Shown here in pieces: positions 1 to 25,661 of a stretch of 64,000 nucleotides of DNA. Position 1 is the first letter of the stretch. Each line of letters opens with the position of its first letter. The stretch is from Shimia sp. R10_1. GTDB taxonomy: Bacteria; Pseudomonadota; Alphaproteobacteria; Rhodobacterales; Rhodobacteraceae. A model generated the notes under the pieces. That model was not told the origin of the DNA. It ran no database searches and saw only the letters and a program-made list of their open reading frames with translations. The stretch is from positions 62,001 to 126,000 of the forward strand of contig NZ_JAGHQX010000004.1 in assembly GCF_017744095.1 (NCBI RefSeq). Direction: 5' to 3'. The position numbers and the translations under genes were made by a program.

Positions 1-199
1 TCTCGTCTCCAACCCGAAGAGTTTCGACCTTCACTTCTCCTCTCCGGGTTGCGATTTCTGTGCCGCGTGTCACCAAGCTTATATCTTTGGAAGCAAGACT
101 TTCGATTTGATGCTCACAACTGCCTGTAAGGGCCTTAACGTTCTGTTCCACTTTCTGCTCTCCCATCACCAATAGACTGACCGTTTCTTCGATCAGCAT
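1..199 (-). CDS. Hint-domain-like protein, N-terminal part (cut by window start)
   Basis: An open frame runs from an ATG at 199 off the left edge of the window. The last visible residues (TRGTEIATRRGEVKVETLRVGDE, in two pieces TRGTEIATRRG and EVKVETLRVGDE) match the opening pattern of Hint (hedgehog/intein) domains, GT-x-I-x-T-x2-G-x-V-x-VE-x-L-x-VGD. The position where Hint domains usually carry the catalytic Cys appears to be Leu. About 45 residues of unassigned sequence precede it. The frame is the same as that of the upstream IalB-family gene, whose TGA lies 17 codons before this ATG, and there is no clear ribosome binding site, so translational coupling is possible. The assignment rests on a short motif only; the rest of the gene is outside the window. 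Confidence 0.45.
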   Translation of the reverse strand, partial: MLIEETVSLLVMGEQKVEQNVKALTGSCEHQIESLASKDISLVTRGTEIATRRGEVKVETLRVGDE

Positions 200-250
200 C
201 CCCGCGGTGGCAGTGTGTTCGTGGTTAAAGCCCTGGCAGAGGCTGTTTCT

Positions 251-20020: not shown

Positions 20021-20848
20021 ATGTCCAATGCCCAACTGGAACAAGCCATCGAAGCCGCATGGGATGCGCGCGACACAATCACCTCTGCCACCACTGGCGA
20101 AACCCGCGAAGCCATCGAAGACACGTTGAATGCGCTGGACAGCGGCAGTCTGCGCGTCGCGGAAAAGCTGGAAAGCGGTGACTGGCATGTGAACCAATGG
20201 GCTAAGAAAGCTGTCCTGCTGGGGTTCCGCATCAAAGACATGGAGCTGCAAGAGGGTGGCCCACAAGGTTCCGGTTGGTGGGACAAAGTCGACAGCAAGT
20301 TCAAAGGCTGGGGCGAAACCCAATGGCAGGCGGCTGGCTTCCGTGCTGTTCCCAACTGCGTTGTGCGCAAATCTGCTTATATCGCGCCAGGTGTGGTGCT
20401 GATGCCGTCTTTTGTGAACCTGGGCGCCTATGTTGACGAAGGCACTATGGTTGATACTTGGGCCACCGTTGGATCCTGCGCGCAGATCGGCAAAAACGTG
20501 CACCTTTCCGGTGGCGTTGGTATCGGCGGCGTACTGGAGCCAATGCAGGCAGGCCCAACCATCATCGAAGACAACTGCTTCATCGGCGCACGCTCTGAGG
20601 TTGTCGAAGGCTGTATTGTACGCGAAGGCTCAGTACTGGGCATGGGTGTCTTCATCGGCCAGTCCACCAAAATTGTGGATCGCGAAACTGGCGAAGTGAT
20701 GTATGGCGAAGTGCCCCCTTATTCGGTGGTTGTAGCAGGTTCTATGCCCTCCAAAAACGGCGTGAGCCTGTATTGCGCGGTGATCGTGAAGCGCGTTGAT
20801 GAGAAAACGCGTTCCAAAACGGGCATCAATGAGTTGCTTCGCGACTAA
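20021..20848 (+). CDS. dapD: Tetrahydrodipicolinate N-succinyltransferase
   Basis: It transfers succinyl from succinyl-CoA to tetrahydrodipicolinate in lysine and diaminopimelate synthesis. The 275-residue protein has an alpha-helical N-terminal third and a left-handed beta-helix of hexapeptide repeats ([33 protein letters not shown]), ending with the usual C-terminal region. GGAG lies about 10 bases before the ATG at 20021. A strong terminator follows, so it is not cotranscribed with dapE, which lies 3.7 kb on, beyond a small unknown gene and two Hint genes. Confidence 0.95.
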
Positions 20849-21108: not shown

Positions 21109-21474
21109 ATGACCCAGGACAAGAAAAAGAAAACGCGGCAACAAGTCTATACCCTGTTGGTTCAGGTTGGTCGCAAGGACGGGGATGGATTGCCTGAAGA
21201 TGCGACAGGCGGCGCGCTGATGATTTATGCCAGCGGCATCGACGAGGCTGAGGCGGTCCGTGAAACCGTCGCAATTCTGAAACAAGCCGATCTCAACCCT
21301 CTGGATGTTACAGGCTATGGAACGGTTGAAGAGCGCGAAGCTCAAGGGCATGAAATTGACGGTCATGAGCGCGGACTGATGCAGCGTGCGCTAGAAGAGA
21401 ACTCTGTTGTGGTGGCCCAGATGACTCCGTTCTTTCATGGTGAAGAAAGTGAGGGAGAGGGGACAGAGCACTAG
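21109..21474 (+). CDS. Conserved-looking small acidic protein of unknown function
   Basis: The 121-residue protein begins with a basic run (DKKKKTRQQ) followed by alternating strand and helix segments (VYTLLVQVGRK, GGALMIYASGIDEAEAVRETVAILKQADLNPLDVTGYGTVEE) and an acidic tail. The pattern suggests a small alpha/beta domain, possibly ACT- or ferredoxin-like, but no motif identifies it. It sits between dapD and the Hint-domain pair, convergent with the latter. AAGG lies before its ATG. Codon use looks normal for the window. Confidence 0.65.
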   Translation: MTQDKKKKTRQQVYTLLVQVGRKDGDGLPEDATGGALMIYASGIDEAEAVRETVAILKQADLNPLDVTGYGTVEEREAQGHEIDGHERGLMQRALEENSVVVAQMTPFFHGEESEGEGTEH

Positions 21475-21491
21475 TTCTGAACCGTCTTTTT

Positions 21492-22598
21492 CTATGCTGC
21501 GCGCTGTTCTGCTAAAGTAAGTGCATCAAATTCTCGCAGCACAGGATAGGCCGACTGCGAATGTTCTGGCAGCTTCGCTTTTGGGTAAGCAGAAAGCATG
21601 CTGGCTTTCAGAAGGTCAGGCTTTCGGCGAATGCGACCAATATCCAAGCTTTCAAGGAAAGTATCAGCAACCATAACTGCATCATGGTTTGGCAACAGAA
21701 GCTGGCAGTATGTCGCCAATGGAACTTCAGGCAGGTGTGTTGCTGCGTTCCCATGAAGCAGATGCCCTGCCGGGATCAGCACATGCTCGGTGCCGAACAT
21801 GTATTCTACGCGGCTTCCTCCAAGCACGAGATTTTGGGTGTGACTGGTCACAATGTCTTGGCTCAGCCCCAAAAATGGTGCGCGGAGTCTGACGGGCGCG
21901 AAAAGACCTGCCGCCGGGACAGTGCGTATGATGTTTGCGAGCACAGGAACGAGCATACCAGTTGCGGTTTTAACAACGTCGCCGCGCTTGAGACTACCAG
22001 CCGAGCGGTAGCCGCGATCTGTCATTACAGGGGTTTGAAGGGACAGGCTCGGCATTGGTCCGATCGGCTCAATGCGGTCGGACACCGCAACATAAGAGAC
22101 CTCCTCCGCCAAAACGTGTGTTTCGGGGTGTTTGGTGCAGATCTGCAAATCGCTATGTCGCAAACCGACAGGTGTACTGATCGCGCGCTGGGCCATTCGA
22201 AAAGTTCCCGGTTGCTCTACGGAAAGACGCCCAAGCCTTGCTTTGAGATCCCAGGAGTAGGTGATGCGCAGAACGTCTGATCGCCCGAGTGTGTCTAGAT
22301 TGATTGCTGCATGGCAAGTGTGCTGCCCACGATTGATCACTAGGATCACGCCACCGCCCGGAACGGCCTGCAGTGATACTTGAAGGCCGTTGGACTCACC
22401 CGTACGAAGCGCAAACATGGTTTGTGGTTGCTCACACTCCGCGCTCTGCATCTCAAGGACCAAGCTGCCTCTTGGCATTTCCAGTTCAACACTTTTTGCA
22501 GATAAAGTTGCGCTGGCGCTGGCCATTTGATGGGACTTTGCGAGGCCAGCGCGACTATACAGCGCACGACTGTGATCAAGGAGGCTGACCCAACTCAT
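21492..22598 (-). CDS. Hint-domain protein lacking the catalytic Cys
   Basis: The 368-residue protein has an N-terminal region of about 175 residues rich in beta strands, possibly a lectin-like or LamG-like fold, and a C-terminal Hint-like domain from about residue 184. The domain opening aligns with that of the neighbouring Hint protein around T-x3-T-x2-G and LKRGDVVKT (here) against LKVGDAVET (neighbour), and it keeps the DIVTSHTQNLVL and EYMFGTEHVLIPAG style of the second half. The expected N-terminal Cys is Ser at residue 184. There is no signal peptide. It follows the larger Hint gene by 62 bases, probably in one transcript. Confidence 0.7.
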   Translation of the reverse strand: MSWVSLLDHSRALYSRAGLAKSHQMASASATLSAKSVELEMPRGSLVLEMQSAECEQPQTMFALRTGESNGLQVSLQAVPGGGVILVINRGQHTCHAAINLDTLGRSDVLRITYSWDLKARLGRLSVEQPGTFRMAQRAISTPVGLRHSDLQICTKHPETHVLAEEVSYVAVSDRIEPIGPMPSLSLQTPVMTDRGYRSAGSLKRGDVVKTATGMLVPVLANIIRTVPAAGLFAPVRLRAPFLGLSQDIVTSHTQNLVLGGSRVEYMFGTEHVLIPAGHLLHGNAATHLPEVPLATYCQLLLPNHDAVMVADTFLESLDIGRIRRKPDLLKASMLSAYPKAKLPEHSQSAYPVLREFDALTLAEQRAA

Positions 22599-22660
22599 CT
22601 AGCAGCCCTTTCAAAATGCGGCTGGTGTGCCGAAGTTTGCCACTCTTGTCGCATGTTGGC

Positions 22661-24226
22661 TCACTCCGCTGCCAAATGGGCCATGGCAGCCGCCTCATAG
22701 CTGCGCAGTCCACGTCGTGCCATTGGGCCATAGCCTTCGCCAGACTCCCGATCGATTTCCGGAAAAATCGTGCAAATCTCATCCACGATTTCGGCCTCAA
22801 AACTCGAAGCAGTTTGTGGTCCCGGCAAAAAACTTTCTGTCGGAAGGTTTTCCGAAAAAACGATCTGATGTTCATCAAAAAGGATATGCACGTATTCCAC
22901 GGTGCCCCCAGGCACGCGCCGCACTGAGTGATCGTTTACCAAATCGCGCGCAGCCACCAAAACCTGCTCTTCTCCAAACAGTAGCTCGGCCCAGGCGTTC
23001 TGCATTAGAACGCGGTGCAGCGGCGACAGCTTAAGGCTGCGGTGTTTTCCAAAGGTGTTTGCCGCAATGTGAATGGGCGCCAAATTCCCTTCCGCCAGGA
23101 CTTCGCGGCGCCCGATCCAGCGAATGGGTTGCGCCCCATTGTCCAGTGTTTCAACGGCGTCACCTACCTTAAGGCACTCAACGGGTACGTCCCCTTGCGG
23201 AGTGCGGATAAAGGTGCCAGCTGTAAAACAGGGAGCCTGATTGACGGTTACAAACCCCACGTCTGTGGTGCCGTTGCCATCGTCCACTGTGTAGGAAAAG
23301 TTGACCTGTTCCTCTTCACCGTCGCCTTCAAGTGTCAGGGTTCCATCTGCGTTGACGAGTATCTTCTGTCCACTCGGCAAAGTGATGGTGCTGCCTGCTG
23401 AAACAGGCTGCCCTGAGATATGCGTGATGGTGAGTGAATTGCCGGTGTTGTTCACATCATTGGCCAAAACATCGACGGTGCGCGTTCCGTCAATCGGCAG
23501 GTTCACCGTGTCAGCATTGGCAATCAGCGAAGTCTGAAGCGAGTCTGCTGCAATCAAAAGCGAGCTGTCATAGCTGCTGTCAGATACATCTGCAATTACG
23601 ATGCGAATGGTGTTCAAACCGGGCGTGATGTTGAACTTTAGGGTCATGGTCTGGGTAAACCCATCCATCTCCGTGTTGAAGGTGCTGCCGGTGTTGTCGA
23701 CAAACAGACTTTCATTGCTGCCGCTGTTGATGTTGCGCGGGTCAACGTCCCCATCGCCAATCGCCAAAGGAACATAGGTGCCGTTGACAGAAACAGCGAC
23801 AAAGTCTTGATATACTGAGTTTGTGAACTCGGGATATTCCTCAGAAGCAAAGACAAACTGCATGGTCATTTGGCTTGCTTCAGTTGCGGTAAAAGAGACG
23901 TCCAGATAGGCGGCATCAAATGTCGAAGCGCCTGCAATCGCATTGAACTCAGGGTTGTTGTCTTCGCCGTTTGTATCGCTGGAGCGGTTGCCGCGCTGGT
24001 TGAATGCACCAAACCTGTTGGTAAAGTTGCTCGCCCGACCGGTCGAGAGGATCACTCCGGTGTCGCTTGGCGTAACACCGCCCGAAATGGCGTCGCCATC
24101 AGAGTAGATCCCTGAAGAAGAGCCTTGTCCACTGTACGATGCTGATTCAATCGTGACATCATCACCAAAGATGGTCTGAGCCATATCAAGTGCAGATGCG
24201 CCCGTGTTTATTGGCAATTTTGGCAT
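22661..24226 (-). CDS. Choice-of-anchor L / Hint-domain cell-surface or secreted protein
   Basis: The 521-residue protein has three parts. Residues 10-225 carry a choice-of-anchor L domain, recognised by FVFASEEYPEF near residues 124-134 and Asp-rich strands. Residues 235-330 form a bacterial Ig/cadherin-like module (VDVLANDVNNTGNSL, FSYTVDDGNGTTDV). A Hint domain from Cys333 to about 480 has CFTAGTFIRTPQGDVPVE, LKVGDAVET, a conserved His in LSPLHRVLM and closing FDEHQIVFSENLPTESF. Such proteins in Rhodobacterales are often exported by type I secretion, and no N-terminal signal is seen here. I chose the ATG at 24226 because it starts the conserved part and has AGGGAC nearby. It lies between dapD and dapE. 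Confidence 0.82.
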   Translation of the reverse strand: MPKLPINTGASALDMAQTIFGDDVTIESASYSGQGSSSGIYSDGDAISGGVTPSDTGVILSTGRASNFTNRFGAFNQRGNRSSDTNGEDNNPEFNAIAGASTFDAAYLDVSFTATEASQMTMQFVFASEEYPEFTNSVYQDFVAVSVNGTYVPLAIGDGDVDPRNINSGSNESLFVDNTGSTFNTEMDGFTQTMTLKFNITPGLNTIRIVIADVSDSSYDSSLLIAADSLQTSLIANADTVNLPIDGTRTVDVLANDVNNTGNSLTITHISGQPVSAGSTITLPSGQKILVNADGTLTLEGDGEEEQVNFSYTVDDGNGTTDVGFVTVNQAPCFTAGTFIRTPQGDVPVECLKVGDAVETLDNGAQPIRWIGRREVLAEGNLAPIHIAANTFGKHRSLKLSPLHRVLMQNAWAELLFGEEQVLVAARDLVNDHSVRRVPGGTVEYVHILFDEHQIVFSENLPTESFLPGPQTASSFEAEIVDEICTIFPEIDRESGEGYGPMARRGLRSYEAAAMAHLAAE

Positions 24227-24515
24227 GTCGCTTGTCCCTGCTTCGCACAGACATGCCACACATCAGCGCCCGGATGGCTCCGGGTGATTGTAAATCCTCA
24301 TGTTTCAACTTTGTGTTGATTTTCAATGAGGGTGGCTTTGCGCCGAACTGCTGGTGACCTGCCTCGGTCGATTTTTTGTTATCTTTCAGGTAACTGCATA
24401 ATTTACGGTTTGTTAAGTGTCTGGTGGTGCTCCCCGCTAATTTGTGACCAAAATGTGGCTTTCCGGTCCTTGCTGCCTGTGCGACAAGTCGGAGAAAGCA
24501 ACAAAGGAAGCTCAA

Positions 24516-25661
24516 ATGACCGCGATAGACGCTGCCAAACTGACCGCCGATCTGATTCGGTGCCCCTCGGTAACGCCGGAGGAAGGGGGCGCATTGGTGC
24601 TTTTGGAAGCGTTGTTGTCTGATGCCGGGTTTAGCTGCACCCGGGTTGATCGCGGCGGGATCAGCAATCTATTCGCCCGATGGGGAGAAAAAGGTCATGC
24701 TCAAACCTTCGGCTTTAACGGGCACACCGATGTTGTGCCGGTTGGGGACGAAGCCGCATGGTCTGTAGATCCATTTGGTGCAGAAGAAAAAGACGGCATC
24801 CTTTTTGGTCGCGGCGCCACAGATATGAAATCAGGTGTCGCGGCCTTTGCCGCAGCCGCCATCGATTTTGTCACCAACACGCCTCCAGACGGTGCCATTG
24901 TCCTGACCATCACGGGTGATGAAGAGGGCGACGCCTTAGATGGCACCACCGCGCTCTTGGAGTATATGGACCAAGAAAATGAGCAAATGGCGGTTTGTTT
25001 GGTTGGTGAACCCACCTGCCCCAATGAGATGGGGGAGATGATGAAAATCGGTCGACGTGGCTCGCTCACCGCGTATTTCACTTTCACCGGTGTTCAAGGT
25101 CATTCCGCCTATCCGCATCGCGCCAACAATCCGGTGCCTGTGATGGCACGGCTTATGGATCAATTCGCAAGCCACACCCTTGATGACGGAACAGACCATT
25201 TTGATGCCTCCACGCTCGCCGTTGTCACGATGGATACAGGCAACCCGGCGACCAATGTGATTCCTGCAGAATGCCGCGCGACACTCAATATCCGTTTCAA
25301 TGATGCGCACTCTGGCGCTTCTTTGACGGAATGGATGCGGCAAACAGCGGACCAACTGTCGGATCAGACTGGTGTTGGTATTGATATGGATGTGAAAGTA
25401 TCAGGTGAGAGCTTTATCACACCTCCCGGCCCCTTGTCTGATCTGGTCGCTGCAGCGGTAGAGGCGGAAACAGGGCGCAAGCCAGAGCTGTCTACATCCG
25501 GGGGCACATCAGATGCTCGTTTCGTACAGCACCATTGCCCAGTGGTCGAATTTGGTCTTGTTGGCAAAACCATGCATCAGGTGGACGAGCAGGTGCCGGT
25601 TGCACAGATCCATCAACTCAAAGACATCTATAGCCGGATTTTGCGTGACTACTTCAGCTAA
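24516..25661 (+). CDS. dapE: Succinyl-diaminopimelate desuccinylase
   Basis: It removes succinate from N-succinyl-LL-diaminopimelate, a later step of the pathway that uses DapD. The 381-residue zinc peptidase-family protein has metal ligands His70 and Asp72 in [12 protein letters not shown], the bridging Asp in [10 protein letters not shown], the catalytic Glu pair in [12 protein letters not shown], and the dimerisation domain with [19 protein letters not shown] before ATG 24516 decides the start against an upstream in-frame ATG at 24444. Its end overlaps the start of the next gene by 17 bases. Confidence 0.95.

Follow-up and report, generated by a model that had tools for sequence, protein, structure and literature searches.

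A Hint_2 gene of catalytic type and a conserved, apparently catalytically lost Hint_2 companion gene beside dapE in Rhodobacteraceae

Type B bacterial intein-like (BIL) domains are described as cleaving but not splicing (PMC4031507). In Rhodobacteraceae, Hint and RTX domains are listed as overrepresented among members responding strongly in bloom experiments, according to one study (PMC12487129). A literature search covering few subscription journals returned no paper on the chemistry of Hint_2 (PF13403) in this family, and no description of a Hint_2 subfamily devoid of both Cys and His that accompanies a catalytic one beside dapE. Here we describe such an arrangement in a 64,000-nucleotide stretch of the Shimia sp. 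R10_1 genome (the window), where two adjacent genes, called CALhint and psHint below, lie next to dapE. Judged from their sequences, they form a coupled pair of one catalytic-type Hint protein and one member of a conserved Hint subfamily which appears to have lost catalysis and to have rewired residues.

The CALhint-psHint unit consists of two minus-strand genes located between a gene for a 121-residue protein, itself behind dapD, and the divergently transcribed dapE. Both open reading frames were confirmed at the positions and on the strand given in the initial annotation; the CALhint start codon was picked at MPKLPINTG (M at 24226). The larger product had been described as a Hint protein with Cys333, an LK-x-GD-x-V-x-T core, a conserved His in SPLHR (His404) and surface-type modules in front, and this description holds: its Hint_2 domain scores 170.2 bits and is preceded by choice-of-anchor L and Big_9 domains. 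The downstream product is also a Hint_2 protein as proposed (match to residues 186-320, 76.3 bits), where Ser184 takes the place of the Cys while the core is kept as LKRGDVVKT. Both matches exceed the curated cut-off of 28.4 bits, and Hint_2 is the single Pfam match of psHint. The unit includes the following features:

22661-24226, minus strand: CALhint gene, 521 residues, choice-of-anchor L, Big_9 and Hint_2 followed by a 52-residue tail (open reading frame, Pfam and NCBIfam profiles)
23537-24184, minus strand: choice-of-anchor L domain, CALhint residues 15-230 (NF038133, 141.1 bits; curated cut-off 27 bits)
23240-23524, minus strand: Big_9 domain, CALhint residues 235-329 (Pfam profile; fold match to RTX-adhesin fragments)
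22820-23233, minus strand: Hint_2 domain, CALhint residues 332-469, with intact Cys333 and His404 (PF13403, conservation, fold)
23228-23230, minus strand: Cys333 codon, predicted nucleophile of CALhint (alignment)
22664-22819, minus strand: CALhint tail behind Hint_2, residues 470-521 (tail profile)
21492-22598, minus strand: psHint gene, 368 residues, jelly-roll domain and Hint_2 domain of predicted lost catalysis (open reading frame, Pfam)
22050-22598, minus strand: N-terminal domain of psHint, residues 1-183, a jelly roll of concanavalin A type close to CBM40 / LamG structures (fold comparison)
21639-22049, minus strand: pseudo-Hint_2 domain, psHint residues 184-320 (Pfam, fold)
22047-22049, minus strand: Ser184 codon of psHint, at intein position 1 (alignment; S, T, G or A in relatives)
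21834-21836, minus strand: Gln255 codon of psHint, where a catalytic His would stand (Gln in 80/80 readable rows)

Residue conservation was assessed in the best 80 of 261 psHint loci (80-locus set) and in 40 loci chosen from the psHint matches, of which 30 ranked highest and 10 lower (40-locus set); the two sets may share loci. Among 67 CALhint rows (the window and 66 loci of the 80-locus set), the catalytic Cys is present in 66 and the catalytic His in all 67, so by sequence CALhint carries both the position-1 nucleophile (Cys or Ser) and the block-B His of a self-processing Hint domain. The nearly invariant polar residues between positions 330 and 471 of these rows include no Asn, whereas inteins and type A BIL domains require a C-terminal His-Asn for C-cleavage or splicing. 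Glu464-Ser465 are found at the end of the CALhint domain, a positional equivalence taken from the ends of the alignments.

psHint differs in its catalytic residues, which were counted in 80 readable rows (the window and 79 loci of the 80-locus set; the truncated L161 is a gap here and was omitted). Position 1 is occupied by S (27 rows), T (24), G (18) or A (11) and never by Cys, while the block-B His column holds Gln in 80/80 rows (SHTQN; Gln255 in the window). Of the Cys or Ser expected in a self-processing Hint domain, psHint therefore has Ser in 27 rows, and the block-B His in none. As Cys and His are retained by CALhint in the same loci, the alignment method is able to detect Cys. A set of 41 psHint rows (the window and the 40-locus set, with two runaway reading frames, L049 and L085, retained) contains no Cys at position 1 either, and its His column reads Gln in 37 rows, His in 3 and Leu in 1. 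In L094 and L097, which carry still more divergent psHint-like neighbours, Gly stands at the Cys place, as judged by eye.

The Cys to Ser replacement noticed initially is therefore real, but it is not the sole change. Besides His404 (Gln255), Asp451 is replaced by Pro in 52/53 rows, His447 by Gln in 41/53 and Ser401 by Ala in 36/53, whereas other positions are invariant specifically in psHint: Gln255, Arg322 and His346 in 80/80 rows and Pro303 in 79/80. The Cys has not moved elsewhere in the alignment, a possibility raised with the initial annotation: no other Cys column is conserved, the best being residue 298 with 23/80 rows. All 53 psHint rows match Hint_2 at E <= 0.1. Over the 66 pairs formed by 12 sequences, one from the window and 11 from close relatives, the median ratio of non-synonymous to synonymous substitution rates (dN/dS) is 0.13 for psHint (defined in 48/66 pairs), 0.09 for CALhint (63/66) and 0.06 for dapE (62/66), values that are rough because synonymous sites are near saturation. 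Since purifying selection is combined with invariant new residues, psHint is an old, conserved pseudo-Hint rather than a decaying copy.

Structures were predicted from alignments of 53 of the 81 psHint rows and 42 of the 67 CALhint rows. The AlphaFold2 model of psHint has a predicted local distance difference test score (pLDDT) of 92.3 and a predicted template modelling score (pTM) of 0.90. It shows the Hint fold whose absence would have told against the initial annotation: residues 184-318 match the intein 6riy_A with Z 14.2 (114 aligned residues, root-mean-square deviation (rmsd) 2.4), a BIL domain with Z 13.9 and hedgehog 1at0 with Z 11.4, and residue 184 falls at intein position 1 in the structural alignment. 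Residues 1-181 of the model are similar in fold to concanavalin A-like modules, among them CBM40 (Z 10.8 to 6er3_B, 141 aligned, rmsd 3.6; 9% identity); residues 1-183 have no Pfam match in any of the 53 rows. The CALhint model is weaker (pLDDT 79.5, pTM 0.64). Its Hint part matches the BIL domain 2lwy with Z 14.5 (117 aligned, rmsd 2.2), placing Cys333 at position 1, and hedgehog 1at0 with Z 12.6, where Cys333 pairs with residue 258. The Big_9 part resembles portions of solved fragments from two RTX adhesins, FrhA and MpAFP (Z 11.3 to 9ybq_A, 94 aligned, rmsd 2.1; Z 10.8 to 5k8g). On these predicted models both proteins have the horseshoe-like beta fold of the HINT superfamily, although Foldseek found no one solved structure that covers the whole of CALhint or of psHint well. 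A sequence search of solved structures gave weak Hint matches (BIL domain 2lwy, E 0.026; gp41-1 intein, E 0.21); designed beta-trefoils scoring above 2lwy in it were taken as chance.

CALhint directly precedes psHint on the same strand in 66/80 loci. The junctions range from -4 to +105 bp, with 58/66 between -4 and +14 bp and 7 of these 58 overlapping, and the distance from dapE to CALhint is 261-378 bp in all 66. In the family sample, psHint is found within 1.5 kb downstream of 71 of the top 87 CALhint rows. Only the first 87 rows were used for this count; of five more rows above 500 bits, four are second copies in genomes already counted and one, G009, has an adjacent psHint by coordinates. 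From the other side, 65 of 104 psHint rows longer than 230 residues neighbour a top-87 CALhint row and 39 do not. Fourteen of the 16 unpaired CALhint rows were examined, and 9 of them are still beside dapE, including L094 and L097 with their diverged psHint-like genes and L099 with a psHint gene missed by the coordinate rule. In several places CALhint has no recognisable psHint. At one locus (L086, 7464-8559) the psHint place is taken by a 360-residue open reading frame, named by eye as solute-binding or channel-like. The 21 family genomes with at most four Hint_2 matches have no long psHint row, which shared descent could explain.

The position beside dapE is equally stable. The unit is flanked in the window by three genes:

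20021-20848, plus strand: dapD (TIGR00965)
21109-21474, plus strand: gene for a conserved hypothetical protein of 121 residues, which converges on psHint and borders the Hint unit on the left (open reading frame, recurrence in relatives)
24516-25661, plus strand: dapE, divergent from the Hint unit (NF009557)

One or more Hint genes adjoin dapE in 80/80 loci, within 510 bp in 79 and at 1259 bp in one, and psHint holds the same place in 40/40 and 80/80 loci. Of the 14 loci of the 80-locus set that have no adjacent CALhint, 13 have the psHint start at a distance of 179-507 bp from dapE and the other one has it at 1259 bp. Outside the family, dapD is within 200 bp of dapE in 23/28 loci of other alphaproteobacterial families. 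Among Hint_2-less genomes of the family, 20 of 29 were compared at dapE, and in 11 of these dapD or the 121-residue gene is within about 350 bp of it. When 289 genomes from across the class were sampled, almost all of them belonging to other families, psHint was present at E <= 1e-25 in three, all Rhodobacteraceae. The Hint unit thus most likely entered between dapD and dapE early in Rhodobacteraceae and was later inherited or lost. The insertion into a lysine synthesis locus suggested initially is thus supported as an old event but not as a recent one: the order dapD, 121-residue gene, psHint, CALhint, dapE, or the same less one member, recurs, and recent mobile insertion was rejected on this ground.

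The 121-residue protein has no Pfam or NCBIfam match; many genomes of the family, including some without Hint genes, have copies 54-87% identical to it close to dapD or dapE. Between dapD and this gene, 8/40 loci (L048, L058, L062, L069, L071, L072, L077 and L081) carry a further choice-of-anchor L and Hint_2 gene whose product is 43-50% identical to CALhint. At six of these loci it is a second copy; the dapD-dapE locus thus gathers Hint genes. A promoter and terminator scan of 21400-24600 gave 0 and 4 sites, respectively, with no excess over shuffled sequences.

Our preferred reading, held with somewhat less than even confidence, is that CALhint cleaves before Cys333, freeing or transferring its N-terminal part, and that psHint serves as a non-cleaving binding or targeting module in the same pathway. 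From what is known of the family we infer that Cys333 attacks the preceding carbonyl with the help of His404, giving a thioester. The bond before Cys333 would most likely be broken and the adhesin-like N-terminal part freed or passed to a small nucleophile; since there is no conserved Asn at the domain end, splicing would not occur, leaving the N-terminal part to be released or handed on. Such release or transfer follows the model of hedgehog and type B BIL domains (PMC4031507, PMC7664689). psHint retains the Hint fold but most likely does not cleave, because Cys, His and other core residues are lost across the relatives compared, with no conserved Cys elsewhere to replace the first; the lectin-like jelly roll would then remain fused to the pseudo-Hint. 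The latter is most likely a binding or targeting module of the same export or surface pathway, presumably produced together with CALhint but capable of working with the cell's other Hint_2 proteins as well. By a crude hydropathy scan with one control, none of 80 psHint and 66 CALhint proteins has a Sec-like N terminus; a type I system may export both.

Several observations weigh against this reading. Pro332 precedes Cys333 in 42/42 CALhint rows, and a Pro ahead of the nucleophile slows N-cleavage in engineered inteins. The His is kept in 3/41 psHint rows, these and the Leu row being among the more divergent. HlyD-type matches of the genome are at least 20 kb away from every Hint_2 domain that shares their contig. 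The junction between CALhint and psHint in the window, 62 bp, is longer than in most relatives, and in 14/80 and 15/40 loci psHint remains beside dapE with no adjacent CALhint. A profile of the tail found behind many Hint_2 domains (see below) missed the C terminus of psHint and four other Hint_2 copies. Finally, class 2 and class 3 inteins do without a position-1 Cys, so its loss alone is no proof of inactivity (PMC4031507).

The initial annotation had suggested that psHint could act as a non-cleaving partner, inhibitor or acceptor. A dedicated partner could bind the Hint domain or its thioester and thereby restrain intracellular cleavage, or could accept the cleaved N-terminal part. The conserved co-directed arrangement with overlapping or nearly overlapping junctions speaks for this, as do mirror-tree comparisons, in which psHint and CALhint protein distances correlate beyond dapE (partial r 0.76, 62 loci; in 43 loci 0.80, against 0.26 for the dapD control). 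However, in 46 loci the neighbouring rnr correlates with psHint given dapE nearly as well as CALhint does (0.67 vs 0.77), and psHint-CALhint given rnr is 0.64, so the mirror-tree signal does not decide the matter, even though dapD shows no such correlation. Moreover, each gene occurs apart from the other, psHint in the 14/80 and 15/40 loci and 39/104 long rows mentioned above and CALhint in the places that lack a recognisable psHint. Therefore the pairing itself stands (66/80 loci, 71/87 family rows) but is not strict, and the notion of psHint as an obligate mate of CALhint is weakened. Direct action on CALhint is plausible, but we do not favour it, because the genes are separable and the psHint-CALhint correlation is little above that of rnr; we regard a dedicated partnership as unlikely.

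Another explanation is that Hint_2 is retained for folding, secretion or stability and that cleavage is not its main role, with psHint showing that the catalytic residues are dispensable. The other Hint_2 proteins of the cell bear on it. Hint_2 by itself is ordinary in the Shimia sp. R10_1 genome, which has 15 such domains; 10 to 18 copies are found in each of 25/25 genomes of the genus, and the domain is present in 219/248 family genomes (at most 15 candidates scored per genome). The domain is near the C-terminal end in all 15 own copies. Twelve of them have Cys at position 1 (L015 with one extra residue behind it). The others are psHint, L013 and L011, the last having a Cys two residues earlier; psHint and L013 lack both Cys and His. 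Besides CALhint and psHint the contig has a third Hint_2 gene, L013 (left edge of the window, about 1-250, minus strand; C34:61666-62070), with SLVTRGT in place of the Cys motif and APNTR in place of the block-B His.

A tail of about 50 residues, marked by the motifs EI..IFPEL and LR..EA, is also shared; it is found at 22664-22819 and at nine further sites in the genome. A profile built from eight Hint_2 tails and searched against the genome at E <= 10 gave 11 matches. Ten immediately follow a Hint_2 domain, eight of these being rows from which the profile was built, and the eleventh has E 0.5. By eye only, the C-terminal end of psHint (LR-x-FDA-x-x-L) resembles the tail. We take the tail to sit where hedgehog has its adduct recognition region. 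The C-terminal position of the domain, the common tail and the loss of both residues in psHint and L013 and of the position-1 Cys in L011 are consistent with a role in folding or secretion. Against it, Cys and His are retained almost without exception in CALhint, and Cys in 12/15 own paralogs, which suggests selection for chemistry. We consider this explanation rather improbable.

The idea of a non-cleaving psHint module beside a cleaving CALhint can be extended to a bacterial hedgehog-like system, in which CALhint would transfer its adhesin-like N-terminal part to a surface acceptor while psHint, as a non-cleaving receiver or guide, would fix the place of transfer, also for other Hint_2 proteins; in this full form it is improbable. 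It is very doubtful that psHint still is catalytic through another nucleophile in the manner of class 2 or class 3 inteins: in the window it has Cys298 near the block F position (a place judged from sequence), but the low conservation of this residue led us to reject a class 3-like role for it, no other Cys column is conserved, Ser184 alternates with T, G and A, and the His column is uniformly Gln. A decaying duplicate is scarcely credible, for although catalytic residues are lost, L161 is truncated and psHint is missing or replaced at some CALhint places, purifying selection, invariant new residues and the constant position in 40/40 and 80/80 loci stand against it, and selection together with the new residues rules out a pseudogene.

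Hint_2 proteins are abundant in a main marine bacterial family, and a natural pair of catalytic-type and non-catalytic Hint proteins offers a test of whether Hint_2 cuts, ligates or binds. Among the systems already described, BIL domains, chiefly type B, are similar to CALhint in the Hint fold, Cys1 and the block-B His; they differ from the present case in that Hint_2 is a Pfam family of its own and psHint lacks both Cys and His, and the similarity of CALhint is one of sequence and model. The hedgehog Hog domain shares with CALhint a C-terminal Hint behind a passenger, the lack of a conserved Asn at the end and an extra tail that follows. In CALhint, however, the passenger is bacterial and adhesin-like, and the likeness of the tail is positional. 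CBM40 and LamG share a jelly-roll fold with psHint residues 1-183, a likeness seen in the fold of the model and not in sequence. Also close are the PF13403 Hint_2 proteins of Rhodobacteraceae, of which CALhint and psHint are both members, and psHint gives the HINT superfamily, noted for self-processing, a clear branch of pseudoenzymes.

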